Below, one piece after another: positions 1 through 26,420 of a stretch of 58,642 bases of DNA; the stretch's first letter is position 1; each line of letters opens with the position of its first letter. The translations under genes and the position numbers were made by a program. Under the pieces are notes generated by a model. That model searched no databases and was not told the DNA's origin. It worked only from the letters and a program-made list of their open reading frames with translations. Source of the stretch: Archangium lipolyticum (GTDB taxonomy: Bacteria > Myxococcota > Myxococcia > Myxococcales > Myxococcaceae); the NCBI RefSeq assembly GCF_024623785.1, contig NZ_JANKBZ010000051.1:1-58642 (forward strand), in the 5' to 3' direction.

Positions 1-12
1 CTTCCAGGGTGC

Positions 13-119
13 GTTCCACTTGCCCGGAATCGGTGTTCCACATGGCCGGAATGGGCGTTCCACATGCTCCGGAATCAGTGTTCCACTTGCCCCGGAATCG
101 GTGTTCCACATGGTCCGGT
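13..119. repeat. tandem 22-23 bp repeats, likely IS21-type element end
   Basis: Five copies of a 22-23 bp unit begin at 13, 35, 57, 80 and 103, each starting GTTCCAC and carrying a CCGGAAT core; the fifth is cut short at about 119. Multiple short terminal repeats of this kind, alternating TGTTCCAC and CCGGAAT, are known from the ends of IS21-family elements. No transposase is in the window; it would lie to the left. The repeats stop one spacer length before the first CRISPR repeat, so the element appears to sit inside or at the end of the array. The family assignment comes from pattern memory and is moderate. Confidence 0.5.
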
Positions 120-154
120 GCACGCAGTAGGAGCTCCGCGTCCTCGTACTCGTC

Positions 155-3100
155 GTTTCAACCCACGCCTCGCTCCGAAGAGCAGGGCGACGAGCGAGCC
201 GCCCGTGTTGGTCTCGGCGAAGATGTTTCAACCCACGCCCCGCTCCGAAGAGCAGGGCGACCCAGCGAGCCCTTCGGGATGATGAACACCGGGAAGTTTC
301 AACCCACGCCCCGCTCCGAAGAGCAGGGCGACCTGGGGTCCAGAGTCCACGGTCGCCCTGTACCTGGTTTCAACCCACGCCCCGCTCCGAAGAGCAGGGC
401 GACCGAGCTGCTCTCCTTGCGCCTCACCGCCTTGTGGTTTCAACCCACGCCCCGCTCCAAAGAGCAGGGCGACTCCGCCGCCGGCACCCGCGCGAGCGCC
501 GAGGAGGAGTTTCAACCCACGCCCCGCTCCGAAGAGCAGGGCGACTTCGGCGCCGTGACGAAGCTTCTACGTGAGGTGTTTCAACCCACGCCCGCTCCGA
601 AGAGCAGGGCGACAGAAGTTCCGCTCGCGGTCCGCGTAGAAGGTGAGGTTTCAACCCACGCCCCGCTCCGAAGAGCAGGGCGACAGAAGTTCCGCTCGCG
701 GTCCGCGTAGAAGGTGAGGTTTCAACCCACGCCCCGCTCCGAAGAGCAGGGCGACCTCTCCTTCTGCGGCGCGATGCCGCGGGTGATGTTTCAACCCACG
801 CCCCGCTCCGAAGAGCAGGGCGACGGGAGCCCTGGGGCGACTGGAGCGCGATGATGGTGTTTCAACCCATGCCCCGCGCCGAAGAGCAGGGCGACTCGCC
901 GGGGCGATGTCCACTGCTGACGTTGTAGAGGTTTCAACCCACGCCCCGCTCCGAAGAGCAGGGCGACCGTCACCGCGAAGAACATGCTGGTGTGGGACAA
1001 GTTTCAACCCACGCCCCGCGCCGAAGAGCAGGGCGACACAGGACGTGTCTCCGGTGGTGGACGCGTTGGAGTTTCAACCCACGCCCCGCTCCGAAGAGCA
1101 GGGCGACTCTCTGCTCAGGCGTCTCGTGAAGGCCCAGCTCAAGTTTCAACCCACGCCCCGCTCTGAAGAGCAGGGCGACCTCCGCTCTCCACGTCAGGAA
1201 CGACATCCAACGCGTTTCAACCCACGCCCCGCGCCGAAGAGCAGGGCGACCGCACCGCGCGTGGAGCCACCATGACGCAGAACCTGTTTCAACCCACGCC
1301 CCGCTCCGAAGAGCAGGGCGACAAAGTTCCGCTCGCGGTCCGCGTAGAACGTCAAGTTTCAACCCACGCCCCGCGCCGAAGAGCAGGGCGACCACGATGA
1401 GCCGCCGAGTCACCAACGTGGACCCGTTTCAACCCACGCCCCGCGCCGAAGAGCAGGGCGACAAAAGCAGGCGCGGACGGGCAATGCGACGATGCAGTTT
1501 CAACCCACGCCCCGCTCCGAAGAGCAGGGCGACCGCAGCCGGTGAGCAGTGCCAGGGGGAAGAGGGTTTCAACCCACGCCCCGCTCCGAAGAGCAGGGCG
1601 ACGCCGCGTGCGGGCAGCAGTCAGGGGCGCCCGAGGGTTTCAACCCACGCCCCGCTCCGAAGAGCAGGGCGACCTGCTCACCCCGGGCGGCTTCGATGCC
1701 GGCTGGATGTTTCAACCCACGCCCCGCTCCGAAGAGCAGGGCGACCTTCGCTGGGTGTTGGTGATGAAGGTCCACGATCCGTTTCAACCCACGCCCCGCT
1801 CCGAAGAGCAGGGCGGCCAGGAGGCGTCGAGACATGCCACCACGGCGTTCCAGTTTCAATCCATGCCCCGCTCCGAAGAGCAGGGCGACTCCGGCTCGTC
1901 AACCTGGTGCGCTACAGCTCGAAGTTTCAACCCACGCCTCGCTCCGAAGAGCAGGGCGACCAGCTCCTTGCGGGCGTGCCCGTTCCACAGCGCGTTTCAA
2001 CCCACGCCCCGCTCCGAAGAGCAGGGCGACGTCTTGGGGTAGCTGCCGATGACGCACTCATAGACGTTTCAACCCACGCCCCGCTCCGAAGAGCAGGGCG
2101 ACCTTCGCCTCGGACTCGTAGTCCAGGGCGTCCGCGTTGCAACCCACGCCCCGCTCCGAAGAGCAGGGCGACTTCGCCCCGCGCATGGAGCCACCATGAC
2201 CAACCTGTTTCAACCCACGCCCCGCTCCGAAGAGCAGGGCGACCAAGGGACACAGCACGGAATCCAGGTGGGAGACGTTTCAACCCACGCCCCGCTCCGA
2301 AGAGCAGGGCGACCTCGTGGGTGGTGATAAGGCGGTGCAGGACGTGAAGTTTCAACCCACGCCCCGCTCCGAAGAGCAGGGCGACCTGACGGGCCGCGGA
2401 CGCGTCCGCTTGGCTCTTGTTTCAACCCACGCCCCGCTCCGAAGAGCAGGGCGACTTGGTCACCTTCACAAGGCGGCCGGTCCTCTCGTAGTTTCAACCC
2501 ACGCCCCACTCCGAAGAGCAGGGCGACAAGGCGTTCTCGGTGCCTACGCGGCGGACGGGAAGTTTCAACCCACGCCCCGCTCCGAAGAGCAGGGCGACAT
2601 CTGCGCCAGCCCCTGCATCTGGCCGAGCTCTCCGTTTCAACCCACGCCCCGCTCCGAAGAGCAGGGCGACTCCGACTGGTCGTAGCTGTAGCGCGCCTCC
2701 ACGGCGTTTCAACCCACGCCCCGCTCTGAAGAGCAGGGCGACGAGGGGGAGGGTGGCGGGGCGGCAGAAGAGGAGGTTTCAACCCACGCCCCGCTCCGAA
2801 GAGCAGGGCGACTGAGTTTCCCCGTCTACTGGCTCGGCTAGTACCAGTTTCAACCCACGCCCCGCTCCGAAGAGCAGGGCGACCGGCGACGGAGTTGTTG
2901 CGGTTGGCGAGGGGTTGCAGTTTCAACCCACGCCCCGCTCCGAAGAGCAGGGCGACGTGGGGACTCGCACGCCATCCTCGAGCTGGACATGGTTTCAACC
3001 CACGCCCCGCTCCGAAGAGCAGGGCGACCGGCCGTCTCGGACTTCCACAGCAGCCAGGAGAGGTTTCAACCCACGCCTCGCTCCGAAGAGCAGGGCGACC

Positions 3101-3386
3101 GGCCGTCTCGGACTTCCACAGCAGCCAGGAGAGGTTTCAACCCACGCCTCGCTCCGAAGAGCAGGGCGACTCCATAGCCATGACGAGCTCGTCAGGGTGC
3201 TGTTGTTTCAACCCACGCCCCGCTCCGAAGAGCAGGGCGACCGGCTAGGCCGCGCTTGGACGCGAGGAAGATCTCCGGTTTCAACCCACGCCCCGCTCCG
3301 AAGAGCAGGGCGACGCGACGCCGGCTGACGTGGACCTGGAGTACAAGGAGTTTCAACCCACGCCCCGCTCCGAAGAGCAGGGCGAC
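155..3386 (-). CRISPR. type I-C CRISPR array, 46 repeats and 45 spacers
   Basis: A 37-nt repeat recurs every 69-73 nt from 155 to 3386. On the plus strand it begins GTTTCAACCCACG and ends AGCAGGGCGAC; the minus strand therefore starts GTCGCCC and ends GTTGAAAC, the usual crRNA orientation for type I-C, so transcription runs leftwards from the leader next to cas2. In that orientation CGCCCTGCTC and GAGCGGGGCG form a 10-bp hairpin (one G-T wobble) closed by a TTCG loop. Spacers are 32-35 nt. Variants: 578-613 lacks one C (36 nt); 859, 1001, 1214, 1356 and 1426 carry GCGCC for GCTCC; 155, 1924, 3063 and 3134 carry CGCCTCG; 2136 starts GTTGCAAC; 1781 ends GGCGGC. Spacer 614-647 equals 685-718, and 3029-3062 equals 3100-3133. 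Confidence 0.98.
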
Positions 3387-3575
3387 CGCGAGTGACGTAA
3401 CACACGGAACCCACTGAGGAAAGTAGCCGATTTTCGCGAACCTGGCTTCAGGTGACGACCGTGGGCTGGGCGTACTCCCGCAGCGCTTGGCCCAAACGAG
3501 TGATTTCGGTGAGTTACACGCTGCGCGAACCTACGGCGCGTAGCGCATCGGCCGGGGTTCGCGCTCCAGTCCGCC
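3387..3575 (-). promoter_or_regulatory. CRISPR leader and cas/array intergenic region
   Basis: This stretch between the cas2 stop and the first repeat read from the leader side should hold the array promoter and leader. It contains a perfect 9-bp inverted repeat, GCGCGAACC at 3523-3531 and GGTTCGCGC at 3556-3564, and a third CGCGAACC at 3435-3442. The pair could form a stem-loop ending the cas transcript, or be a binding site. The last 60 nt before the array are the least GC-rich part. No coding sequence is supported here. Confidence 0.7.
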
Positions 3576-3866
3576 CTACACGACCAGAGGTCCGGTGGGG
3601 TCCAGGGGACGACGGACTCCGTAGTGCTCGATCCGCTGTGCATCAGCGATCGACACATAATAGAAACGTAGACTGCCACGCTGGGAGTCGTACTCGGACA
3701 GCAGCTTGTTCTTGAGGACGACCCAGTTTTTGGCTTCCAGCCGACACTCGAAGACGGAGTACTGCACCCGTACGCCATAGTTCTTGCAGGCCTCCGCGAT
3801 ATGGCGGAGGCGGCGGGCTCCAGTCGAATCCTGGTTGGACACATCGTAGCAGACGATGACGAACAT
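3576..3866 (-). CDS. cas2: CRISPR-associated endonuclease Cas2 (type I-C)
   Basis: A 96-residue Cas2, the usual length, starting MFVIVCYDVSNQD with the conserved Asp of the first beta strand (YDV), then the RRLRHIAEACKNYG helix and the VQYSVFECRL strand typical of the ferredoxin-like fold. In working systems Cas2 dimers bridge Cas1 dimers in the spacer integration complex. It is the last cas gene, 6 nt after the cas1 remnant stop and 189 nt from the array. The frame is intact, but its partner Cas1 looks broken, so this Cas2 probably no longer supports acquisition unless a second cas1 exists elsewhere in the genome. Confidence 0.95.
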   Translation of the reverse strand: MFVIVCYDVSNQDSTGARRLRHIAEACKNYGVRVQYSVFECRLEAKNWVVLKNKLLSEYDSQRGSLRFYYVSIADAQRIEHYGVRRPLDPTGPLVV

Positions 3867-3872
3867 AGATTG

Positions 3873-4647
3873 CTACCCCATGGAGAAGGGGGGATAGACG
3901 TCCAAATCCTTTCGCAAGGTGCGCGCCAGGAGCAGAGCCTGCAGGTGGGGCATGCGGCTCCAGGGGGGCGTTCTGCTGGAGGAACTCGTGACGCAACTCT
4001 CCGCGTTTGTTCTCCTGCCAGGAGGTGAGAAATGTCTTTCGGCCAGCGTCCGTGAGCCTCCAGGCCTCGTTGGGCTTCTCGACGAAGTCCTCGGGGCCGA
4101 GCTGACCACGATTCACCAGGGACAGGACGAAGCGATCCACCAGTGGGACACGGAACTCCTCCATCAGGTCGAGTGCCAACGAGAGTCGTCCGGGTCGCTC
4201 CTCGTGGAGGAATCCCACGGCGGGGTCCAAGCCCACTCCTGCGAGGGCTGCGGCGCAATCCTGCATCAGCAGGGCATATCCGAAGGAGAGCAGCGCGTTG
4301 ATGCGATCCTTCGGTGGACGGTGTGAGCGTCCGCCAAAGCGGAAAGCCTCCTCTTGGCGCTTCACCAGCAGGGAGAAGACGGAAAAGTAGTCGCGGGCAG
4401 CCATGCCTTCCTGGCCACGGACCTCTTCCACGGAAGTGGCGCGGGAAAGGGCGCGCAAGTGGAGCGCGAGCCGGTCACAGATCTTTGCGAAGGCAGGCTT
4501 GCGCTCCTCGGCCGCATCTCGGCGGGCGTGGAGGAGGAACCTGCGTGCGTTGGCGACCTTGCCGACGACCATGGCGCGTGCCAGTTCCAGCGTCCGGATG
4601 ACGCAAACTGCTATGCACTTGTCAAAGAGCGCTTCTCTGGACAGTCT
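3873..4647 (-). pseudogene. cas1: cas1 remnant: 5' end deleted and 3' end frameshifted
   Basis: Translation from just after the cas7 TAA (4648-4650), in the cas7 frame, gives Cas1 sequence from about residue 85-90 onwards (TLELARAMVVGKVANARRF), with active-site neighbourhoods GQEGMAARDYF and LHEERPGRLSLALDLMEEFR present. No start codon, no N-terminal beta domain and no cas4 lie between cas7 and this point. Near the end the frame is lost at a run of six C (minus strand; G run at 3963-3968): with five C the protein would continue into PHLQALLLARTL and DLDVYPPF, the normal type I-C Cas1 C-terminus, ending at the TAG at 3873-3875. The first ATG (4572) would give a protein lacking the N-terminus and running in the wrong frame over cas2. 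A sequencing error could explain the single base but not the missing 5' end. Confidence 0.85.
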
Positions 4648-5589
4648 TTAGAGCGTCCGCTCGACGAGATTGATTCCGTTGGGGACGGAGCCCACTGTCA
4701 CCTCGTAGTCAGAGAAGTCGCGCGCGGGCCGCGAGCTGTCCTTGCGGCTGACCTTCACTAGGTCGAACAGCCGGTGGGCAGGGGCATTGCCAAGAGCGCT
4801 CTCGTGCTCGAAGACGATGAGGCGCCGCGAGGCCATCAGCCCGCGCGCGGCACTGCGATCATGCTCGAACATCTGGCCGAGCGCCTGCCACAGCAGCTCC
4901 AGGTCCTCGGGGCCGAAGCGCGTTTGTCTGGCCAGCGCGGGTGAGATGAATCCGTGGGTTCGGTAGAGCCCATAAGGCACCATCGTCTTGCGGCCCATGG
5001 TGCGGTTGTCTCCGCCCTGCTGGTCCGCTTCCTTCTGGGTGGCCACTGCCATGCGGGTGATGGCGTGCTCCAGACTGATGATGGGGTCCACCGAGCGACC
5101 GAAGGTGAGTTGGACCGGGCCGCGAACCTGGCCAGCGTTGTTCTCCTTGAGGGACATCACCGCCCCGAAGGTGCGGATGTCATAGAAACTGCGGCACATC
5201 CAGTCGCGTGCCTTTTCCACTACATCGCCGTCCGAGGCTTTCTTCGCCGGCTTCTTCGCGGCCTTCTTCTTGCCGCCCTCCTCGGTCCTGGAGGCATCCT
5301 CGCCATCGTCGGCGGCGGGGGCTTCGAGGCCTAGGGCCGCATAGGCGCGGCCCTGTTGTTGGCTGAGCACGGCCTTTTCCTTGATGTAGATGTCGTAGCC
5401 CTCCTGGCCGTTCCGTGCGAGCTGCACGAAGTTACGCACCTTGCGCTTGAGGCAGACGTCCGTCACCAGTCCGTGGCCGGTTTCCGGATCCACGCGCGGC
5501 AGGTTGCCCGCGTCGGGGTCGCCGTTGGGGTTGCCATCCTTCACATCGAAGAGGAGGACGAAGTCATAGCGATTCTTGAGTTCGGACAT
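4648..5589 (-). CDS. cas7: Cascade backbone protein Cas7 (Csd2, type I-C)
   Basis: 313 residues starting [26 protein letters not shown]; the [15 protein letters not shown] segment is the Csd2/Cas7 signature. Cas7 polymerises along the crRNA to make the Cascade backbone. The longer open frame upstream belongs to out-of-frame cas8, so I start at the ATG 40 nt after the cas8 stop. Middle motifs [11 protein letters not shown] and [15 protein letters not shown] are present, as is HGFISPALA. Unusual is a hydrophilic insert at about residues 95-120 with [11 protein letters not shown]. The gene ends NLVERTL-TAA and the cas1 remnant begins at the next codon, so a deletion joins here. Confidence 0.95.
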
Positions 5590-5629
5590 GAAATGCTCCT
5601 GCAAAGGATTGTCGGGAATCGGGAGTGGC

Positions 5630-7360
5630 TCACGCAGCGGTGGGCTCGGAGTTCGCAGTGCGCCCCTCGAAGAACCGATGGCGCTGGTGGTAGTAGCCCA
5701 CTGCGAAGAGGCCCTGATCTTCCAGGCCGAGAGTCGTGGGGAATGTGCGAGCGGGCAGACCCGCGCAGATCTGGTCCTTGAGGCGCTCCAGCCACCTTCC
5801 CTTCTCGTCGGCCTTCGATGCGTGGTGGTTGGAGAGACGCAGGAGTTGGGGAAAGACGATGGCGGGGTGGGCCATGGCCGAGCCGAAGTAGCGATCGCGC
5901 AGGGTCGTGTTGGTCTGGCCCAGGGCGGCGTACTGCAATCGCTCGAGCACGGCGAACAGCCGCCCGAGCAGGTAGGGAACGGCGGTGTTCTTTTCGTCCA
6001 GGGACACGGAGACCTCCAGGGATGGTAGGCCGCTACGAGGCAGCCTCGAGAGGGTGGCCTTGATGAGGGAGACGCGCGTGCGGAGATTCCAGGCGGGGTC
6101 CCCGTCACGTGGTGGAACACGCAGGCGCTGGAGGGCGGCTGCGAGTAGCTCGCGAGGGAAGGGGTGGCCGCGGAGGGCTGCGGACAGGAGCCGGGTGCCG
6201 AGCAGCGGAGGCAGCTCCGCGCGGCCGGGTGGATCCACGGCTTTCAGCAGCATCCAGAGTGGGATGGGCTGGTCCGCGTTTCCCGCCAGCTTCAGGTCCG
6301 CGAAGTAGCGGAGGACGTTTCGCTTGATGTCTCCAACCGTGGCTTCCAACCAGTCGCGTACGACGAGGCGAGCGTTGTTTCCGCTGAGGGTGACTGCATA
6401 GAAAGGAGTGGTGTCGAGGTCGGCGGGCTCCAGACCCCGCAGCGGCGAGCTGGCCAGTTCCATCGCGCGCTGGGCGTCCGGGGCCTCGAAGAGGGAGGTC
6501 AGAATGTCCTCGAAGCCGGTCTCGGTGCGCGTCCAGAAGACGGTTACCGCGCTGTTACCTAGAGCGACACCATGGCGGTAGCGGCGACCTTCCGCGCGTG
6601 CCAGCAGCCAGTTGAGCGCGGTGGTGTAACCCTCGGCGGCGGCTCGCGAGACGGGCGCGTTGGACCCCTGCTCCAGTCCGTGTGAACAGAACGATTCCTC
6701 ATTGAAGGAGACGAGTGAGGTGCCGGAGCTCTGACCTCCGGGCACGTTCTTCACCGCAGGGTGAAGACGGGCGGGCGGTGCCAGTTCGCCAGTGATGAGG
6801 CATCGCACCCGAGAGGCTTCGCCTTGCTGCTCCTCGCGCTCACGCGTGGCCCTCCACCATGCACGCACAGGCTCGCGTTCGTGAACGCAGCGGACCTCGT
6901 CCGGTAGGTAGATGAAGGCGATGTACTCGTCTCCGCCCCATTCCTCACGCGGGCGCCAGGACAGCAAACGAGACAACCACTGGTCTCGGGCTTCGAGGAA
7001 GCGCAGTACGGCCCGGACTCCCTCGTCGCCGGTGGCCTGAGCCAGTTCGGTCACGCGTTCCTGGAACGACTCCATGCACTGCTTCAGTCGCTCCGGATTC
7101 TCCTTCTCCGGGTCTCCCAAGCCGAGGATGTACTTGGCGTTGTCTACGAGGAGTCCAGCGCTGACGCCAGAGGTGCGCCGGGGCAGCCTGGGAATGCGCA
7201 GTGCCTTGGCTCGACCCTGCTCGTCAACCGTGGATTCCAGCGACAAGGGGCGTCCCTCATCATCCACCCGCAGCAGGAAGTGGACGGAGTGCTCCTCGTA
7301 GTCCGGGTCTTCCAACCAGCCCTTCTCGCGGGCCAGCGTATAGAGCGCCTGCAACATCAT
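5630..7360 (-). CDS. cas8c: Cascade large subunit Cas8c (Csd1)
   Basis: 576 residues, normal for Csd1, starting [22 protein letters not shown]; motifs include [14 protein letters not shown] near residue 75, [20 protein letters not shown] near 200 and [14 protein letters not shown], all typical of Cas8c. It recognises the PAM and the target strand in type I-C Cascade. In studied type I-C systems an internal start within cas8c also makes a small Cas11c subunit from the C-terminal part; I could not fix that start here. The ATG overlaps the cas5 TGA (ATGA), indicating translational coupling. Confidence 0.95.
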
Positions 7361-8019
7361 GGGGTGCCCCCGTTGGCGCGCAGCACCTCGTCTCGTGGTG
7401 GCACGTGAAGGACACCGCCCTTGAGCCGGGCCTCGAAGAAGAGCGGACGTACGGAGAGTTGGCCGTTGGGCCCATAGTCGAAATCGTAGAACATCAGCCC
7501 CAGCGGCCGGTCCACCTCCGGCTGGATGGCGCGGAGCACAGGAGGCGCTGGCTCCACTTCGGCGACAAATTCGCGGCAGCCCAGGTAGGGCTGATGAAAG
7601 GACTGTCCGCGCTCGAGCCTCCGCTCGAACATCTCCTCGAACTTGCGGACGTTTTCTTCCGGCCCCGCCCGCCCGGTCAGCGCGAAGGAGCAGGTGACGA
7701 CATAGTCCACGTCGCGCAGAGCCACGGTGTTGCGCTGGGCCCGGCGCTCCTCCACGTAGAAGTCCCGCACCTTGGGCGAGGCGCGGCTGCCCACCTCGTT
7801 GCGGCGGAAGCTGGTCCACTGGATGGGAGCCAGCACGGCAATTTCATGCACATGCCAGCGAATCGAGGGCTTCCACAGCACTGCCTCCAGGAGCCCGCGT
7901 GCAGCCGAGGGGGTCATGACTTCATAGCTGACACGCTCGGCCTTCATCTCCGGGCGGGTGAAGCAGGCCACTGGCCCCCGCGCCCGGACGCGGAAGCGGC
8001 CACTCTCCCTCTTCATCAT
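7357..8019 (-). CDS. cas5c: pre-crRNA endoribonuclease Cas5c
   Basis: 220 residues with the type I-C Cas5 N-terminus (ARGPVACFTRPEMKAERVSYEV, shown in part as FTRPEMKAERVSY) followed by TPSAARGLLEAVLWKP. In type I-C, which lacks Cas6, Cas5c cuts the repeat hairpin to make crRNAs and then caps the 5' handle in Cascade. The strong hairpin of the repeats in this array fits such a substrate. It lies 25 nt after cas3 and overlaps cas8c by 4 nt. Two Met codons start the frame; the first is taken. Confidence 0.95.
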   Translation of the reverse strand: MMKRESGRFRVRARGPVACFTRPEMKAERVSYEVMTPSAARGLLEAVLWKPSIRWHVHEIAVLAPIQWTSFRRNEVGSRASPKVRDFYVEERRAQRNTVALRDVDYVVTCSFALTGRAGPEENVRKFEEMFERRLERGQSFHQPYLGCREFVAEVEPAPPVLRAIQPEVDRPLGLMFYDFDYGPNGQLSVRPLFFEARLKGGVLHVPPRDEVLRANGGTP

Positions 8020-8044
8020 CGGCAGGGTCCCCCCTTCAGGGACA

Positions 8045-10297
8045 TCAATCGCTCACCACCAGCAAGCCCGCGTCGAGCAGGCCCACGCGCTCGGGCACCA
8101 GGCCGAAGCGCTCATCGTAGGCCGGTGCCAGCTCCGGCCCCAGGACCACCACCGTGTCCGCCACCGGCCGAGCCAGACCTCGTGCCAACCATGCTTCCCG
8201 CTGCTTCACTTGCACCTGCACCGTGAAGCCTTGCAACGCCCGTAGCCGCTCACGGCTGGGACCTGCGTGCTCCAGCCGTGCTACGTGTTCGGCCGCATCT
8301 CCCCAGGGGACGACTACCGGAGCGGACCAGCCGTCTTCCACCAGGTGGAAGTGTTGAGCCGTATCCTCGAAGCGGAGCTGTGCACGCATGGCTTGGATGC
8401 CCTTGGCGTCCAGTTCCTTGGCGGCGTAGAGGCGGCGGAAGTAGCGGCGGCACGTGTCTGGCTGGAAGGGGTCCAGGTCGGGACTCTCCGCGAGCAGGCC
8501 TCGGGTCACCTCGAGTGCCGTGCTGGCCACACCGCGGGGAGGGGCCGTGGGGGCGAGGAATACACGGAGCTCGCCCAGGCCGTTCAACCGCCCTTCGCGG
8601 TTGCAACGCCCGGCGGCTTGGGCGAGCGAGTCCAGCCCACCCAGTGCCCGGTAGACCACGGGGAAGTCCACATCCACCCCGGCCTCCACGAGCTGCGTAG
8701 ACACCAACCGCACCGGCTCTTGACGTGCCTTGCGTGCTTTCAGTTCGGCCAACACCCGGCTGCGATGGCGCGGACACATGAGCGCGGACAGGTGCAGTGT
8801 GGTGGTGTCTCCCAGCTTGCGGTCCAGTGTTTCGCACAGCTCGCGCGCGTCCCGGCGTCGGTGGACGATGGCCAGCACGTCCGGCTCGTGCGTCAACTCC
8901 TCGGCCAGTGCTTCGTAGGAGGTGGGTTCGGGTGCGGCCGGCCATCGCACTCGCACCCGGCGCAGGCGCTCGAAGGCGCGAACCTCGGCCGGAACAATCT
9001 CTCGAACGTCCTCCAGCCCAACCGGCAGTTCCGCGGTGCGGCCCAGAGCCGGTTGCGTGGCTGTGCACACCACGAGGCTGGTTCCGTAGTCCCTCACCAA
9101 TGAGCCCAGTACGTCGAGGATGGGGGCCAGCAGTTGAGGGGGTAGTGTCTGCGCCTCGTCCAGCACCAGCACGCTACGTGCCAGTCTGTGGAGCTTGCGA
9201 CAGGCGCCTGGACGTCGAGCGAAGAGACTGTCGAAGAGCTGCGCCGTCGTGGTCACCACCACCGACGCATCCCAGTTCTCCGAGGCCAGCCGGTTGCGCG
9301 CAGTCTCCCGTATTGGATCCAAAGCGCTGTGGTGCTCTACCACAGCCTCCTCGCCCAGGGCGTCGCGGTACACTGCGGCGCTCTGCTCGATGATGGAGGT
9401 GAAGGGGATGGCCACCACCACGCGCTCCAGGCCATGGCGCGCGGCATGATCCAGGGCGAAAGCCAGCGAGGCGAGTGTCTTGCCGCCTCCGGTGGGAACA
9501 GTGAGACTGAATGCGCCAGGGGGCAGAGCGGTTGCTTGGAGGCAGGCCGCGAGCACTTCGGCGCGCACGCGGTTGACCTCGGAGGCGACGGCTCGGGCCC
9601 GAAGGCCCTCCTGATAAGTGGCTAGCCTCCCGCGTAGGACTTCAAGGGGAGGTCGGCCGCCCCTCAACTGTGCGCGGTCGGGGGCGAGGAACTCCTCGGT
9701 ATCGAGGAAGTCCGCATCGCACAGCGCGGAGAAGAGTATGCGCGTCCACAGTTCCAGGTCTCTGCTGGCGGCTTGTGCCTCATGGCGGTCGCGAGGCTTT
9801 CGCGAGAGAAAGGAGGGGAGGGCAGGAGCGGTGGCTTCGAGAAGTACCGATGGAGGTTGAGCCCCCAATGCGCGCTGCAGCAGGTCCTTCCTGCTCTCCA
9901 ATCGCTGCTCTAGGCGTTCACGGTTGGCGAGGCCGGCATGGTGGCCGGCGATGGCGAAGGCCAGGAGGGAGCCCAGATTCTTGCCCAGCCTTTGCCGAGC
10001 GTGAAGAGCACCCGCGGTGGAGTGGTCTCGTGGGCCGTTGTCACCTTCCTTCTCGAGGTGAGCTTCGAATCCGTTTTCTTCACGGATGATGCGCTGAAAG
10101 CTGTGAGCGTACTTACCCAGGTCGTGCCAGCGTCCGGCCAAGCGAGCCCATTCTCCGGCTCCGAATCTCTCGGCGAACTCGCGTGCGCGCTCGCCCACCT
10201 GGACCAGATGGTCATGCAGGAGGTGGGCTCGGCCAGCTTCGTCCAGATGGGCCAGAGGCTCCGTGGTAAGTGGCTGCTGCTCAGTGGCTGCACGCAT
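8045..10297 (-). CDS. cas3: CRISPR helicase-nuclease Cas3 (type I-C)
   Basis: 750 residues with an N-terminal HD nuclease and C-terminal SF2 helicase. HD residues are visible: WHDLGKY at 57-63, DHSTAG at 91-96 and HH at 119-120. Helicase motifs include PTGGGKT at 268-274 (Walker A), IPFTSIIEQ at 297-305, DEAQTLPP at 380-387 and a motif VI region QAAGRCNREGR. Cas3 unwinds and degrades DNA marked by Cascade. It is the first gene of the minus-strand cas operon. No motif is missing, so interference should be possible even though adaptation is broken. The start ATG has no strong ribosome binding site. Confidence 0.96.
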   Translation of the reverse strand: MRAATEQQPLTTEPLAHLDEAGRAHLLHDHLVQVGERAREFAERFGAGEWARLAGRWHDLGKYAHSFQRIIREENGFEAHLEKEGDNGPRDHSTAGALHARQRLGKNLGSLLAFAIAGHHAGLANRERLEQRLESRKDLLQRALGAQPPSVLLEATAPALPSFLSRKPRDRHEAQAASRDLELWTRILFSALCDADFLDTEEFLAPDRAQLRGGRPPLEVLRGRLATYQEGLRARAVASEVNRVRAEVLAACLQATALPPGAFSLTVPTGGGKTLASLAFALDHAARHGLERVVVAIPFTSIIEQSAAVYRDALGEEAVVEHHSALDPIRETARNRLASENWDASVVVTTTAQLFDSLFARRPGACRKLHRLARSVLVLDEAQTLPPQLLAPILDVLGSLVRDYGTSLVVCTATQPALGRTAELPVGLEDVREIVPAEVRAFERLRRVRVRWPAAPEPTSYEALAEELTHEPDVLAIVHRRRDARELCETLDRKLGDTTTLHLSALMCPRHRSRVLAELKARKARQEPVRLVSTQLVEAGVDVDFPVVYRALGGLDSLAQAAGRCNREGRLNGLGELRVFLAPTAPPRGVASTALEVTRGLLAESPDLDPFQPDTCRRYFRRLYAAKELDAKGIQAMRAQLRFEDTAQHFHLVEDGWSAPVVVPWGDAAEHVARLEHAGPSRERLRALQGFTVQVQVKQREAWLARGLARPVADTVVVLGPELAPAYDERFGLVPERVGLLDAGLLVVSD

Positions 10298-10424
10298 GCT
10301 TTAGTCGAAGTGTGAATGCGCTCAGAAGGAGGGCAAGAAAACGTGCCAGCCCTGCGGAGGCAATACCGCGAAGGAAGTAGAGACATGCTACGGCGCGTTC
10401 ACCTTCGGCGGGTGCACACCACAA

Positions 10425-19982: not shown

Positions 19983-22184
19983 TCAGGCGAGCGGGAGGGT
20001 GCAGCGGAAGCGTGCGCCGCGGCCCGGCCGGCGCTCGCCCTGGAGGCGTCCCTGGTGTTCCTCGAGGATGGAGCGGCTGATGGACAGGCCCATGCCCAGG
20101 CCCTTGGGCTTGGTGGTGAAGAAGGGCTCGAAGATGTGAGCGAGCACTTCCTCACTCAAGCCCACGCCCGTGTCCTCCACGATCAGCTCCACACGGTCCT
20201 CCACCTGACGGGTGCACACCTGGACCTGCCGTTCTCCGGGCGGGCACGGGCTCACCGCGTCCAGGGCATTGACGATCAGGTTGAGCACTACCTGTTGGAG
20301 CTGCACGCCGTCTCCCTTGACGGGGAGGGGTGAGCCGGCCAGGTGCAGTGTGAGGGAGGCCCCGCGAAGCTGCGCGTCATTGCTCACCAGGCGCGTCACC
20401 TGCCGCACCAGCTCGTTGAAGTCATGGGCGGTGGCCGGGAACTCGCCCTTCCTCAACAGTGCCCGCATGTGGCGGATGACCTCGCCGGCCCGCTTGTCGT
20501 CGGAGATGATGTCCTGGAGCATCTCGCGCACCAGGGAGAGGTCCGTGGGATTTCGCTCCAACAGGCGTTGAGCGGCCTCGGCGTTGGTGAGGATGGCCGC
20601 CAGGGGTTGGTTCAGCTCGTGGGCGATGGAGACACCCAGCTCTCCCACGGCGGCCACGCGCTCCATGTGGGCCCGCTCGTCCCGGGCCCGGCGTGCCTCC
20701 AGCTCGGCGCGCCGGCGGGGGGTGACGTCCACCAGGGACACGACGGCCCCGCCCTCGGGCAGCTCCAATCGCCGGGCGCGCAGCTCGAACCACGAGTCCG
20801 CCGCGAAGCCGTGGAACTCCACCACGTCCTCGTGAGCGTGGCCCGAGAGCACCTCCTGGAGCAGCGTGGCCACCCTGGCCGCCTCGGGGTGGCCCGTGCG
20901 CGCCGCCTCGCGGAAGGTCTCCAGGTACGGGCCTCCCGGTACGAAGAGCTTCTCGGTGGGCAGCCCTCCCAGGCCCTCGAGCCGGGCCGAGGCCGGGTTG
21001 GCCCGCAGCACCACCCCGTGCCTGTCGAGGATGGCCACGGAGCCCGGGAGCGAATCCAGCACCGCCAGGTTCACCCGCTGGGCGCTCATGCGCCCGCGGC
21101 GCTCCAGCAGCAGCACGGCGATGAGCACGGCCTGGAGCAGGCCGGCCGCCAGTGCCAGCGTCACCTGCCAGCGGTAGCGCTCCCAGAGGCCATGCTCGCG
21201 GAAATGCACCACGCTGCCGGGGGGCAGGCTGCTCTCGGGGATGCGCCAGCGCTTCAGCTCCCTGGCGTCGAAGGCGAGCACGTTGGCCTCGATGGGACCG
21301 GGCGGCAGGCTCGCGGCCTGCTCACCCCCCAGCAGCCGCATGGTGCGCCGCGCCACCTGTTGGCCGAGCAGCTCGTAGTCCAGCAGGATGCCCCCGACGA
21401 GTCCCTGGCCCAGCATCGTCTTGTGGACACTGAAGATGGGGGGACTTCCGTCGGCATGCAGCAGCCGCAGCACGTCGCGCCCGATGAGGCTCTGACCCCG
21501 CGCGTCGCGCATGAAGCCGATCATGAAGACCACGCTGTCCTCGGGCAGGGTGCGCACACGCTGTCGCAGCTCCTCCAGCGTCAGCCCGGTGAGGCCGATG
21601 AACTCGCGGCCCGGCGCGGCGGAGCGGACCTCTTGCTCCACGAAGCTCCAGGCGTCCACCTCGCGTTGGCTGGAGCCGAGGACGAGGACGACATGGCGTG
21701 TGTCCGGGAGGAGCCGCAGGGCCATCCGCACCGTGCCCGGTATGTCGAGGTCCGCCCAGTTGCCTCGCAGGTAGGGGCTCTGGGGAAGGGCCCGCGCCAG
21801 GAAGTCGTCGTTGACGATGGAGAGGAGCGGCACCTGTGGCCACAGCTCCTGCTGGAGCTTGAGCAGGAAGGGGGTGGCATCCGCGAAGACGACGAGGGCC
21901 TCGGGGCGCCGCTCCCGGTACTTGGCCACATAGAAGTCACGCAGCGCCCGCTCGTACCCGGCGCTGCCGAACCAGGCCATGTCGAGGTACTCGATGTTGA
22001 CGGTGACGGGCTCCCGCCACTCGCTCTGTAGCGTCTGCCGGAAGCTCCGGGCGAAGTCCGCGATGGCCGGCACCGAGACGTCCTCCGGCATGAAGAGCAG
22101 CACCGTCTTCGCCTTCGTCCGCTCGGGTTCCGCGAGTGAAGGAGCAGCCAGCAACAGCAGGAGCAGGAAGCCCAGGGCGCGCAT
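19983..22184 (-). CDS. sensor histidine kinase with periplasmic binding-type sensor
   Basis: 733 residues: signal peptide (FLLLLLLAAPSLA), a periplasmic domain of about 300 residues resembling uncharacterised ABC-type substrate-binding sensors, a membrane helix (VTLALAAGLLQAVLIAVLLL, about 345-365), a PAS domain (about 385-500), the H box VSIAHELNQPLAAI and an ATPase domain with NLIVNALDAV, EDTGVGLSEE, FFTTKPKGLGMGLSIS. The kinase core is of the FixL/DctB type, normally paired with a FixJ or NtrC-like regulator. Only a broken regulator remnant follows it. Confidence 0.9.
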   Translation of the reverse strand: MRALGFLLLLLLAAPSLAEPERTKAKTVLLFMPEDVSVPAIADFARSFRQTLQSEWREPVTVNIEYLDMAWFGSAGYERALRDFYVAKYRERRPEALVVFADATPFLLKLQQELWPQVPLLSIVNDDFLARALPQSPYLRGNWADLDIPGTVRMALRLLPDTRHVVLVLGSSQREVDAWSFVEQEVRSAAPGREFIGLTGLTLEELRQRVRTLPEDSVVFMIGFMRDARGQSLIGRDVLRLLHADGSPPIFSVHKTMLGQGLVGGILLDYELLGQQVARRTMRLLGGEQAASLPPGPIEANVLAFDARELKRWRIPESSLPPGSVVHFREHGLWERYRWQVTLALAAGLLQAVLIAVLLLERRGRMSAQRVNLAVLDSLPGSVAILDRHGVVLRANPASARLEGLGGLPTEKLFVPGGPYLETFREAARTGHPEAARVATLLQEVLSGHAHEDVVEFHGFAADSWFELRARRLELPEGGAVVSLVDVTPRRRAELEARRARDERAHMERVAAVGELGVSIAHELNQPLAAILTNAEAAQRLLERNPTDLSLVREMLQDIISDDKRAGEVIRHMRALLRKGEFPATAHDFNELVRQVTRLVSNDAQLRGASLTLHLAGSPLPVKGDGVQLQQVVLNLIVNALDAVSPCPPGERQVQVCTRQVEDRVELIVEDTGVGLSEEVLAHIFEPFFTTKPKGLGMGLSISRSILEEHQGRLQGERRPGRGARFRCTLPLA

Positions 22185-22235: not shown

Positions 22236-24026
22236 TCAAATCACGTCGAAAACGTGATCGAGCAGCATGATGACGCCGCAACCGACAAGATCAGGGGCCG
22301 CATGGGCGCTCAGCACATGCCCGCCGATGACGGTGGCCGCCTGCTCCGGGGGGGTGCCCTCTGGCACGTGATTCACGTTCTGCACCACGAGATGCACATC
22401 CCATTTGCCCTGCTTCTCGGTCGGGGGCAGCCTGATGCTCCCGGTATAACAGCAGCGCTTTGCCCTCAGCCGCCGGTCAGCCTGCTTCAGGTCCGGCAGT
22501 TCCAGGGCGAGCCCGGTGGCTATCGATTCGGTGATGACGTTCGACAGGTTTGTCCTGGCACCACCGTGAACACAGTATTCCAGCAACACACCCTCGCCTC
22601 CGCCCCCCCGGAGCACCACACCCACAATGCCCTCGGCCCCGAGCTCGAGCACATGCTCGACGCCCTGGACATTCGGTGCCGTGGTCTGGCCGAGCGATTG
22701 TCCCGACGCGTTGTAGGCCGCCATTGTCACTGGCGTGCTGGTGAACTGTACCACCCGCGCCGTTACGCGATTCGTTGGAATGTGCGACAGCCGCAACGAG
22801 CCCGCCGGGATCGCCAGCGCGGGCGTGTTGTTGTACCAGTTGACGATACGGACCGGCTCTTGCGACTGGCTGAGGTACGTCAACCAATTGAAGGCGCCCT
22901 TGGACGGATACTCACCCAGGGAGAACCGAGCGAAGTCCAGGCAGGTCCGCTGCTGGTCGTCATCTTCCGGCGGGAAGGGATGGATGCTGCTCGGGCAGGT
23001 CGTCGGGTGCAGCACTACCCTGAGCGCATCTCCAGGCCGATTGTGCGGCAGCAGGTGCGCCACGACGTGGTAGGCGTCGCAAGGGCGCGGTTGATAGTCC
23101 CAGACCGCGGCCGTCAGGTTGACCACGTCGCCCGGCTTGTAGGAGCCGCGGTCGGTCACGATCATCTTGCCCAGGAGGAATTGCGAGTTGACGCGTTCCT
23201 CCTTGACCGTGTGCTCAAGCACGCGGCGCTCGGTATGGCGCTGGTAGTGCCACCGTACCTGCGTATGGAAGGGGCGGCCCGGCAACGGCAGCTGCGGGTA
23301 CTCGATCGCCATCTCCACCTCCTCGCGCAGGGTGCGCTCACCTGGATCCGGGGTGGTTTGATCCTGGCCACGGCGGATCGGGTCGCGGTAGTCGCTGGCC
23401 GCTGCCGCCACGGCCGCCGCCGCCGCCCCACCGTAGAGTCCGCCGGCCAGAGGTGAAGGCGCTTCCCATTCAATGACGGTGCTCAAGAGCGGCCCACAGG
23501 CCAACACCTTTCCCACGCCCTCGAGGTGGTCGCCAGCCGTCGGGTGCCCGGGTTGGATGATGTCGTCACCCTCGTCGCCGCCGTCAGCCCAGACATGCCA
23601 GTTCGACAGCGCCATGGGCGCGTTGGTGCTCGCGTCCCGCACCAGCATGCCGAGCGTGCCGCTGCCGTTGAACCAGAAGAGATGCTCCTCCGCATTGCTG
23701 GTGGCCGGCCCACCGACGAGCGGGTCGAACTGTCGGTCATCCCGCTGTCCAGCCGACTGGGTTCCCGGGCGTACCTCTTCGACATCGGTCGGATATCCCT
23801 CGAGCTCCTCTGGAATGGGATGTGAGCCCGCCGAGGCGATGGCCCGTTCCGAGGGCAGCTTGGATTTGACGTAGAAGATGATGCTGAGTACGTCCTGGAG
23901 GGAACCCTTCGAACGCTTGAGTCCCCAACCGATGGTGCGCACGTTCGGATCGCTGGCGTATTCCCCTCGCAACCGAGCGACCAGCGCGTTCAGTTTGTCG
24001 ATCTTCGCTCGGTTGTCGTCCGGCAT
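22236..24026 (-). CDS. S1-like protease half carrying the catalytic His
   Basis: 596 residues. The N-terminal 85 residues (NVRTIGWGLKRSKG, IIFYVKSKLPSE, IPEELEGYPTDVEEV) match the lead-in domain of bacterial NAL1-like chymotrypsin-fold proteases. Residues 121-180 then form the first beta-barrel: GSGTLGMLVRD and MALSNWHVWADG with the likely catalytic His144, then IIQPGHPTAGDHLEG. Where the second barrel should follow (Asp and GDSG motifs), the protein instead runs into an Ala-rich linker (about 197-210) and some 380 residues of beta-rich sequence, so no Asp or Ser motif is present. Those motifs are in the neighbouring upstream gene. GGGAGG lies 8 nt before the ATG and only 16 nt after that gene's stop. 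The protease-fold reading is by motif and is not structure-tested. Confidence 0.65.
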   Translation of the reverse strand: MPDDNRAKIDKLNALVARLRGEYASDPNVRTIGWGLKRSKGSLQDVLSIIFYVKSKLPSERAIASAGSHPIPEELEGYPTDVEEVRPGTQSAGQRDDRQFDPLVGGPATSNAEEHLFWFNGSGTLGMLVRDASTNAPMALSNWHVWADGGDEGDDIIQPGHPTAGDHLEGVGKVLACGPLLSTVIEWEAPSPLAGGLYGGAAAAAVAAAASDYRDPIRRGQDQTTPDPGERTLREEVEMAIEYPQLPLPGRPFHTQVRWHYQRHTERRVLEHTVKEERVNSQFLLGKMIVTDRGSYKPGDVVNLTAAVWDYQPRPCDAYHVVAHLLPHNRPGDALRVVLHPTTCPSSIHPFPPEDDDQQRTCLDFARFSLGEYPSKGAFNWLTYLSQSQEPVRIVNWYNNTPALAIPAGSLRLSHIPTNRVTARVVQFTSTPVTMAAYNASGQSLGQTTAPNVQGVEHVLELGAEGIVGVVLRGGGGEGVLLEYCVHGGARTNLSNVITESIATGLALELPDLKQADRRLRAKRCCYTGSIRLPPTEKQGKWDVHLVVQNVNHVPEGTPPEQAATVIGGHVLSAHAAPDLVGCGVIMLLDHVFDVI

Positions 24027-24042
24027 GTTCTCAGCCTCCCCA

Positions 24043-25848
24043 TCAAAGGGTTATGCCCATTCTGGCGAATACATCCTCGAGCAATGACGCCCAGGCGGTG
24101 TCGCCCGTGGGGTTGTCGTTGGCATCCCGCGAGCCGCTGTGGTTCAGCGCGATCGGCCGCAGGGTCGCCGTGTGTACCCAGACCGAGCCGGAATCGCCGG
24201 GGATGCTGACGTCTTCACCAAAAGCCGGATCGCGGTCGATGATGAGCTGATCGATGCCCCAGGTTGCCTTGTCGTGTCCATCCGGTGCGAGCGTGCGGAT
24301 CATTCCGTGGGTGAGGCCGGTGGTGGCGCCGGACTTGAAGACCCGCCGCCTCGGGTCGTTCGGCGGTGTCGTCAACAGGATGTCGTCGATCTCGGCGCGC
24401 GTCATCACAGGCCCGCTCACGTTGACCAATCCGTCGAGGGCGTTGATGAAGCCTTGATTGTCTTCATCGGATTGGGCGTCCAGCACCTGCGAGAAGCCCA
24501 GTGCCCGATCGGTGTCGAGCAGGCAGAGCGCCGCGTCGATGTCGTTCTGGCTCCAGCGGTTGAGCGTTCCAATCACCAGATCCTCGTCGTGGTAGGCGAG
24601 GTCGGAGGATTGCTCGAGCAGGGCCGCGATCAGGAGAATGGCCGCGATGATGAGGAGCAGCACCTTCCACCACGGGTCCTGGTAGGGAATGGGCCCGTAC
24701 TGGCCCGTGTAGGGAGTGCGCGGTGTCACCGAGAACGAGAACCGGGTGGGAAAGGCGTAGAAGGGGTCGTACTCGAAGCGGCCGTCGTGGGGCTTGTCGG
24801 GGTCTCTCGGTCCTCCAGGTCTCCCGTTCCCCGTGCAGTGGCAGGCCAGCAGGTGCAAGACTTCGCAGGGATCGACCTCGCGCCCGTCCAGGATTGACTT
24901 GAGGGCCTCCCGTATCGCCTCGCGCACCGCCGGATCGCGACCAGGACCTCCGGGGCGCTTGGGCAGGCGCCTGCGGCCCTTGTAGGCGGTCTCCCGGTCG
25001 AAGGCGAACTGCTTCAGGCTGAAGCGCAGTGTGCCTTCCTGTACTTCGGAGACGACCTCCCCCGTCGTCTGGTCGATGCGGGTGCGGCTGACGAAGATGT
25101 GCTTGCGCACCCGGCGGTTGGGGTTGTTGACATCTTGCATGCCGGCCATGTTCCAGCAGACGAACTCGACCTCGTGTTTGCGCGGGGCCGCACCACTGAC
25201 ATTGACCTTGAAGTAGACGGTGCGCGCGGCTCCTGGCACCAGCGGTCCCAGCACGATGCCGCTGCCGAGTTGCGTCTGGCCGAGCGCGGCCAATTCCGCG
25301 TTGGACCAGCCATCGAGCACGACGATGCCACGCGCGGCCAGGATGGCACGGCTTTCCGGCGTGATGTCGAGGACGTGGTTCTCGGTGAAGGGCAGGCCCC
25401 AGCGGTTCACCACCCTGACCGCCATGTAGTACGTGCCGAGCGCCGCCTCGAAAATGCCGTCGGGCATCTGAAAGAGGTCGGTGGTGCGCACCGCATAGGG
25501 CCGGTAGGGGATCTCCAGCATCGTGCCGCCGAGGTACCTGGCCTCCCACTGGATGTCCTCGAAGTCACGGGAAGGGAGCGGGTCCTCGGCACCGATGGTG
25601 GCCAGGATGTCCACCCGCTCGACCCCTGGGTCGATCATCATCTCCGAAGGTTTCCAACCGTCCGCGGTGGACTCCCGATATTCCGCGACCAACGACCAGC
25701 TCGCGCCGTCGGCAACCACCGCGAGGCCGACGGTGGGCGGATACGTGCCGCTGCCCGTGGTCGCTCCCTGGATTCGGAAGCGATTCTCCCAGGAGTGAAT
25801 CGCCTTGGTGACGCTGAGGCTCCAGCGGCCATGGAGTTGTATGGTCAT
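24043..25848 (-). CDS. S1-like protease half carrying catalytic Asp and Ser, membrane-anchored
   Basis: 601 residues starting MTIQLHGRWS, with AGAGGA just upstream; the longer open frame has no support. Residues 1-390 are a beta-rich, unrecognised region. A membrane helix (VLLLIIAAILLIAALL, about 396-411) comes next. The C-terminal 180 residues look like the second barrel of a chymotrypsin-fold protease: IGTLNRW at 426-432, DIDAALCLLD at 436-445 (likely catalytic Asp438), FKSGATTGLTHG at 504-515 and IPGDSGSVWV at 549-558 (Ser554). The first barrel with its His is absent and is found in the next gene of the operon (22236-24026). Function unknown; the two products may assemble into one enzyme. 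Confidence 0.65.
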   Translation of the reverse strand: MTIQLHGRWSLSVTKAIHSWENRFRIQGATTGSGTYPPTVGLAVVADGASWSLVAEYRESTADGWKPSEMMIDPGVERVDILATIGAEDPLPSRDFEDIQWEARYLGGTMLEIPYRPYAVRTTDLFQMPDGIFEAALGTYYMAVRVVNRWGLPFTENHVLDITPESRAILAARGIVVLDGWSNAELAALGQTQLGSGIVLGPLVPGAARTVYFKVNVSGAAPRKHEVEFVCWNMAGMQDVNNPNRRVRKHIFVSRTRIDQTTGEVVSEVQEGTLRFSLKQFAFDRETAYKGRRRLPKRPGGPGRDPAVREAIREALKSILDGREVDPCEVLHLLACHCTGNGRPGGPRDPDKPHDGRFEYDPFYAFPTRFSFSVTPRTPYTGQYGPIPYQDPWWKVLLLIIAAILLIAALLEQSSDLAYHDEDLVIGTLNRWSQNDIDAALCLLDTDRALGFSQVLDAQSDEDNQGFINALDGLVNVSGPVMTRAEIDDILLTTPPNDPRRRVFKSGATTGLTHGMIRTLAPDGHDKATWGIDQLIIDRDPAFGEDVSIPGDSGSVWVHTATLRPIALNHSGSRDANDNPTGDTAWASLLEDVFARMGITL

Positions 25849-26083: not shown

Positions 26084-26356
26084 TCACTCCAGCACGGGAG
26101 GAGGGGGACACGGGCCGACCCAGGTGAGGGTGGGCCCGCATTTGGCGATGGCCACGGTGCGGCAGCGGATGGGCGAGGTGATGATGCCGCCGCCCGGCAA
26201 CCCGCCACCCACGGCCTGGTCCAGCTGCGACTCCTCGAGCTCCGCCATCGACTGGCCCGCGGGGCTCTCCGGCAGCGCCGCGCGCTCCTCCGTGGACAGA
26301 CTCGCCCGGTACCGCGGGTCCTTCCACGCCCGGATGATCAGCTCTCTACGATTCAT
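26084..26356 (-). CDS. mersacidin/lichenicidin-type lanthipeptide precursor
   Basis: 90 residues starting MNRRELIIRAWKDPRYRASL, then STEERAALPESPAG. This is the leader pattern of type 2 lantibiotic precursors (often related to nitrile-hydratase-like leaders), with acidic AELEESQLDQAVGGG ending in a double-Gly cleavage motif at about 50-52. The following core is rich in Gly, Thr, Ser, Pro and has three Cys (65, 73, 83), enough for up to three thioether rings. AGGAGG lies 5 nt before the ATG. No LanM, LanT or C39 peptidase gene is in the window; the next genes downstream on the same strand are the two protease halves, 235 nt away. Modification is inferred, not shown. Confidence 0.75.
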   Translation of the reverse strand: MNRRELIIRAWKDPRYRASLSTEERAALPESPAGQSMAELEESQLDQAVGGGLPGGGIITSPIRCRTVAIAKCGPTLTWVGPCPPPPVLE

Positions 26357-26420
26357 GGCGTCCTCCTGGTCATGCCCTTGATCGGGCATCTGGGTGGAGT
26401 CGCCCGCCGTACCTGTGACT

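Follow-up and report, generated by a model that had tools for sequence, protein, structure and literature searches.

Can one trypsin-type protease be encoded by two neighbouring genes, and what would bring its halves together? The question is raised by genes A and B in a stretch of 58,642 nucleotides of Archangium lipolyticum (contig NZ_JANKBZ010000051.1; the whole stretch is hereafter the window). Both genes and all of their features lie on the minus strand. Gene B (24043..25848) encodes 601 amino acids and comprises an N-terminal region X0, a region X, helix 1 and a protease C-half with Asp and Ser. Gene A (22236..24026) encodes 596 amino acids and comprises a protease N-half with His, helix 2 and a region Y. 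In the original prediction, made from the letters of the window, the pair was described as one chymotrypsin-fold protease cut before its IGTL strand. The answer proposed here goes further. A and B are probably reciprocal chimeras of a NAL1-like protease and of a second, protease-free protein, XY, re-pairing in trans as a split protease (probability about 0.74). At the level of sequence, the two tilings, the conservation and the adjacency on which this proposal is built are documented.

The N-half of the protease is found in residues 1-170 of A (23517..24026), which comprise the NAL1-like lead-in and the His half of the first barrel. The match to the protease profile described below extends over residues 12-167. 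His144 is located in LSNWHVWADG (23595..23597), and GDSG is absent from A; both had been predicted and are read from the translation. The predicted NAL1-like nature of the lead-in is borne out by a profile of six A proteins, which matches rice NAL1 (7y77) at profile positions 34-171 with an E-value (E) of 2.9e-4. Seven single-chain relatives match NAL1 in a profile search (E 1.2e-16). PHROG family phrog_20754, annotated 'protease', matches residues 19-166 of A (E 1.3e-15).

The C-half of the protease is found in residues 425-601 of B (24046..24576), which comprise the Asp strand and the second barrel. Asp438 is located in NDIDAALCLLD (24535..24537), GATTGLT at residue 507, and the nucleophile in GDSGS (24190..24192). 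The nucleophile is Ser553, the predicted Ser554 being off by one in numbering. The hydrophobic helix from residue 393 and the absence of [ST]NxHV from B are also as predicted. The ATG start of B is consistent with the relatives L015 and L016. The genes are separated by the predicted 16 nt (24027..24042), which lie between the TGA of B and the ATG of A and include a ribosome-binding-like GGGGAGG.

In single-chain relatives, the first ~165 residues of A and the last ~180 residues of B are contiguous in one chain. A hidden Markov model (HMM) of 303 positions was built from 22 ordinary single-chain NAL1-like proteases. In ten pairs, A covers this profile from 4-7 to 138-171, and the significant stretches of B begin at 173-237 and finish at 297-301. 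The eleventh pair gives 5-146 for A and 171-301 for B. In the window, the significant stretch of B is residues 501-600 and begins late (profile position 209); the Asp strand of B is accordingly placed by the alignment of the relatives and by position. The lead-in and the His motif of a NAL1-like trypsin-type protease are present in A only, and the Asp and the GDSG Ser, in that order, in B only. In 11/11 pairs no single polypeptide carries all three triad residues, while all eleven retain His in A together with Asp and Ser in B. The KSG stretch is likewise kept, as judged by eye. Identity to the halves of the window falls to 37% (N) and 33% (C) across the ten pairs compared. One protease domain lying over two adjacent genes, with its junction between the IIQP strand and the IGTL strand, thus agrees with the conserved triad and with the contiguity of the same halves in single-chain relatives. 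A duplication of the IGxL strand in A (GVGKV) and B (VIGTL) was considered and rejected: in L017 and L019 the A stretch aligns, as judged by eye, with the Cys-Cys segment of the loop in XY.

Insertions occur in single-chain members of this protease family. Viral single-chain proteases (L107-L117) have inserts between the IGxL and Asp strands, near the split site as judged by eye. A protease on a viral contig (L119, 669-2762) is broken just after its His motif SNNHVLA by an insert of ~350 residues, a putative intein by its motifs.

Eleven B-A pairs were found, in myxobacteria, Alphaproteobacteria and Betaproteobacteria. In all eleven the genes are adjacent and on one strand, with B ahead of A and a gap of 9-16 nt. 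Among the matches listed, every full-length A or B match belongs to one of these pairs. The nearest pair is that of Archangium lansinium (65 and 59% identical to that of the window), and two of six Archangium genomes carry a pair. A scan of genome contigs with B yields 17 relatives. Five have the protease C-half, and A is directly downstream in 5/5; the remaining 12 are XY, a single chain free of protease. A pair is carried by plasmid pMpar-2 of Methylocystis parvus, which is recorded as complete; a second plasmid record, identical in size and species, is taken to be that plasmid too. Three further pairs are from members of one family, found by order- and family-level searches. The divergent eleventh pair (G1330) amounts to a passed prediction: its A came from a search, and a look at the adjoining sequence then revealed B. 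The divergent A of this pair (L156, 2828-4549) has a duplicated lead-in domain, with profile matches at 13-80 and 94-240. L015 is titled Rhodocyclaceae, and as a metagenome-assembled genome it may be mis-binned. Several genome searches sampled a larger group, and plasmids were searched with B as the query. The recurrence of the pair, with the three residues kept in all eleven, is more than chance.

A tblastn search of 50,697 phage records with A as the query gave no match. The viral contig set, viral_contigs, includes one XY as well as single-chain proteases, but by the patterns used it gave no match related to A or B. A phage origin of the pair was rejected on these two results. The defence library gave no match.

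The regions fused to the protease halves are the second part of the answer. In the original prediction they were two different, unrecognised beta-rich regions; they prove to be complementary halves of one family. XY has the architecture beta-sandwich X, helix, loop of ~35 residues, second helix and beta-sandwich Y. In it, X and helix 1 of B run straight into helix 2 and Y of A, with no protease between. Fourteen single-chain examples are known from the searches, one of them (L030) incomplete. Two lie beyond the twelve of the scan: L106, on a viral contig, and L101, in the family of a Rugamonas genome. An XY HMM of 524 positions was built from 13 chains, L030 being omitted because its N-terminus is cut. 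It matches 20/20 A and B proteins with full-sequence E of 8e-36 to 2.3e-16 (Z = 1e6). Stretches with i-Evalue <0.001 lie within positions 2-286 in B and 266-510 in A. X is therefore homologous to B and Y to A; the combination of X, helix hairpin and Y in one chain is, in the window, divided over B and A. The two profiles do not cross-react: the protease HMM matches 0/13 XY chains and the XY HMM 0/22 proteases.

In the window, X (B residues 109-390; 24679..25524) corresponds to the first part of the XY profile, and B covers positions 3-254 of 524 with helix 1 counted in. The match starts at B residue 110, and only the first ~108 residues of B are extra relative to XY. These form X0 (B residues 1-108; 25525..25848), beta-rich as judged by eye; the Methylocystis parvus relative gives a weak match to DUF4114, under the cut-off. 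Helix 1 (B residues ~393-413; 24610..24672) consists of DPWWK followed by a hydrophobic stretch with a mean Kyte-Doolittle (KD) value of 2.65. Helix 2 (A residues ~193-211; 23394..23450) is Ala-rich, with mean KD 1.37, and is followed by DYRDPIRRGQD. Y (A residues 212-596; 22239..23393) and helix 2 together match the later part of the profile, at positions 278-380 and 449-501 of 524. Pfam gives for A only a weak MG2 match, in the Y part and below the cut-off, and for B no name; NCBIfam gives no match for either.

A model of XY has a mean predicted local distance difference test score (pLDDT) of 67.6. Its X and Y sandwiches are confident in parts and its hairpin is poor. Foldseek and VIA place both X and Y among generic immunoglobulin (Ig)/MG-type sandwiches (best Z 10.6 over 100-112 residues). 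Hosts of XY, by record titles, include Pontibacter, Paenibacillus, Micromonospora, Saccharibacteria and the archaeon Halosimplex. In 13/14 loci XY adjoins a gene of ~275 residues, W; the exception is L030, a contig of 3,961 bases. W was not found in the ten pair loci tested, some of them only 6 kb long. W and XY form a widespread, unnamed two-gene unit with a hydrophobic helix hairpin (L020-L029, L031, L101, L106). W of Micromonospora (L029) has a weak match to a twin-arginine translocation (Tat) signal, below the cut-off. In Paenibacillus (L022, 464-5056), W and XY follow genes with phage-tail-like matches under the cut-off (Tail_P2_I, Mu Gp48) and with DUF6519.

The junctions suggest how the pair may have arisen. 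All native ends are preserved. B ends as a single-chain protease ends and A starts as one starts; X of B starts like XY, after the extra ~108 residues, and Y of A ends like XY. One junction is present per gene. The cut in the protease falls within barrel 1, after the IIQP strand and before the IGTL strand, and that in XY within the loop of 22-40 residues between its two hydrophobic helices. The order along the operon is X, helix 1, protease C-half, stop, start, protease N-half, helix 2, Y. DPWW and the IG strand are 30 residues apart in 10/11 pairs and 29 in one, and this near constancy suggests a fixed helix-to-strand join. Such an arrangement could result if two unrelated genes, those of a single-chain NAL1-like protease and of XY, had swapped tails in one exchange.

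Because the fused regions are two halves of a second protein, the protease halves have a concrete reason to meet. X with helix 1 and helix 2 with Y would re-pair in trans as they do within XY, and this pairing, if kept, would bring the protease halves together and hold the two half-barrels at the tip of the hairpin. Barrel 1 would then close across chains and the His-Asp-Ser triad would form; neither chain alone would be a protease. Most likely, XY-type contacts join helix 1 to helix 2 and the barrels are completed by both chains together. The protease might be switched on when the XY scaffold assembles, or its halves might help to assemble the scaffold. With odds somewhat better than even, the pair is a natural, conserved 'double split' in which assembly of the scaffold equals assembly of the protease, and in which activity would be a built-in sensor of scaffold assembly, of membrane insertion or of the two products meeting.

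In trees of the N-half and of the C-half, each built with the 22 single chains, one branch separates the ten pair members from the rest (99/99 and 100/98), and both trees are compatible with a single origin. Closest to the pair members in the N-half tree are the single chains L139 and L140, proteases fused to Endonuclease_NS. The C-half tree gives no clear choice among L098, L100 and the clade of L139, L140, L099 and L141. Distances of protease N-half, Y, X and protease C-half correlate among ten pairs (r 0.96-0.98). All four segments are under purifying selection, the ratio of nonsynonymous to synonymous substitution rates (dN/dS) being at most 0.24 in 16/16 segment comparisons. Twelve of these give 0.04-0.14, and the four near saturation give 0.11-0.24.

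The Archangium pair was modelled with its chains linked through the stop codon as a device, the model comprising helix 1, both protease halves and helix 2 only. It contains protease-like strands, with helix 18-49 leading directly into strand 51-59, and its A half is confident near the His strands (blocks 84-88). VIA superposes residues 49-228 on residues 257-449 of NAL1 (Z 10.2, root-mean-square deviation 2.9, 147 residues), a score on a par with those of bacterial trypsin-type and Deg/HtrA chains, which reach Z 10.4. The NAL1 and bacterial trypsin-type rows stay within the B half (46-232). Several Deg/HtrA rows span 48-49 to 361-363 and so reach the A half, as ranges in which the aligned residues are unspecified.

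Several points weigh against the reading of A and B as re-pairing reciprocal chimeras. The linked Archangium model is of moderate quality (pLDDT 70.2, predicted TM-score 0.58), the other four models score 57-67, and the prediction of helix 2 is weak (blocks 45-67). Foldseek finds no match for the model at 0.001, and the B profile has no sequence match in the PDB. The significant HMM stretch of B begins at position 197 or later in 8/10 pairs, well after the start of the missing half, so that the tiling depends in part on alignment where the Asp segment is concerned. Which single chains are nearest is clear for the N-half but not for the C-half, so that a common parent of the two halves is only tentative. 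Shared ancestry alone can yield distance correlations of the kind observed. No N-terminal hydrophobic signal is seen in A or B (maximum 15-residue KD 1.66), and simple insertion would consequently put the N-half of A inside and the C-half of B outside. For the halves to share one side, the helices would have to insert as a pair or not span the membrane; they may instead be buried in an assembly, without crossing a membrane.

The pair has also been considered under other explanations. An unlikely one is that the halves associate as a non-catalytic pseudoprotease scaffold, with the fold retained only to lock X and Y together. Splitting would tend to impair a protease, it is the XY scaffold that occurs widely, and there is no known substrate. 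Nevertheless, His, Asp and Ser are invariant in 11/11 pairs despite identities down to 37% (N) and 33% (C), and the KSG stretch is retained by eye; such conservation speaks against loss of catalysis. More doubtful still is the absence of any common domain, with A and B as separate binding proteins that carry inherited protease fragments and are otherwise mere operon partners. Adjacency, which is what sequence can give, is not contact. However, two domains are complementary at once, the genes are adjacent in 11/11 pairs and both halves are under purifying selection, and a lone half beta-barrel would be expected to expose its hydrophobic core.

The order of the segments along the operon would also suit a frameshift or stop read-through giving one chain, with a circularly permuted protease inside XY. 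The gaps are short, seven of the 11 pairs are in frame, and G1330 has no visible ribosome-binding-like sequence ahead of the ATG of A. Four of the 11 are in the +1 frame, though, the stops vary (TGA, TAA, TAG), and a GGAG/GAGG-like sequence precedes the start of A in 10/11 as judged by eye. As a general mechanism it was rejected, since frame and stop differ among pairs, and it is very improbable overall. Hardly credible is an assembly error, a local rearrangement or a decaying pseudogene, to which the presence of the pair in only 2/6 Archangium genomes might point: identical junctions occur in 11 genomes of several bacterial groups, one of them on a plasmid recorded as complete, dN/dS is well below 1, and the 20 proteins have no internal stops. 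An accident of a single genome, or an error in its assembly, is contradicted by the 11 pairs.

The closest known proteins are rice NAL1 and the single-chain relatives of bacteria and phages, which share with the pair the order lead-in domain, SNxHV, VDAA, GDSGS. In the 22 single-chain proteases both halves are in one chain, whereas in A and B they are in two, each joined to a part of XY. The XY and W unit shares X and helix 1 with B and helix 2 and Y with A; it differs in being one chain, protease-free and W-adjacent in 13/14 loci, the pairs being two chains with no W in the ten loci tested. Chymotrypsin-fold proteases that need a strand or fragment from another chain include flavivirus NS2B-NS3, hepatitis C NS4A-NS3 and the engineered split tobacco etch virus (TEV) protease. 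The cofactors NS2B and NS4A are not known to contribute a triad residue, and the TEV split is man-made; in the pair, by contrast, two natural genes carry the triad itself between them. Split inteins and split DnaE provide one protein from two genes whose products must meet. For A and B no splicing is implied, and two different proteins are split and cross-joined. To our knowledge, no natural protease or other enzyme with such reciprocal wiring has been described. Among the matches listed from openly licensed articles no described natural split trypsin-type protease was found, which is weak evidence.

The trypsin-NucA conflict systems have a protease fused to an Endonuclease_NS-type nuclease (PMC7159879). 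L139 and L140, nearest in the N-half tree, share this architecture (Endonuclease_NS, PF01223; E 4e-35 and 4.8e-41). In trypsin-NucA the nuclease is in the same protein, whereas A and B are without a nuclease domain, and the word 'split' is absent from the main text of PMC7159879. No nuclease match was obtained for A and B of the window, of the Archangium pair and of Methylocystis parvus, or for A of G946.

If the halves do assemble, the pair would be a naturally split trypsin-type protease with its triad over two genes, cross-wired into a second split protein. It would show how, through a single recombination event, unrelated proteins can come to depend obligately on each other. The position after the IIQP strand is a candidate evolved split site in a chymotrypsin-fold protease for use in proximity sensors. 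The pair also gives entry to the unstudied two-gene family of W and XY, present in bacteria and an archaeon.

The neighbourhood of the pair has features of its own. Just upstream of B, a small open reading frame (ORF; 26084-26389, minus strand) matches TIGR03898, the mersacidin/lichenicidin lantibiotic precursor family (E 9.9e-20), and has a leader end of GG type as judged by eye. A role of the pair in lanthipeptide processing was considered from this ORF and is not supported: no precursor was seen by eye beside the Archangium pair, among ORFs of at least 60 amino acids after a composition filter and with no dedicated search. In a genome of the same family (L003), a single-chain NAL1-like protease (22-1317) adjoins an ORF (1330-2415) with a match to part of the lanthipeptide synthetase LanM (TIGR03897, E 8e-98). 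As judged by eye, a histidine kinase (19983-22184) lies directly downstream of A and a similar one near the Archangium pair (L007, 2314-3729). Positions 1-10300 of the window contain Cas-like genes and repeats, among them a Cas2-like ORF at 3576-3866, identified by eye.

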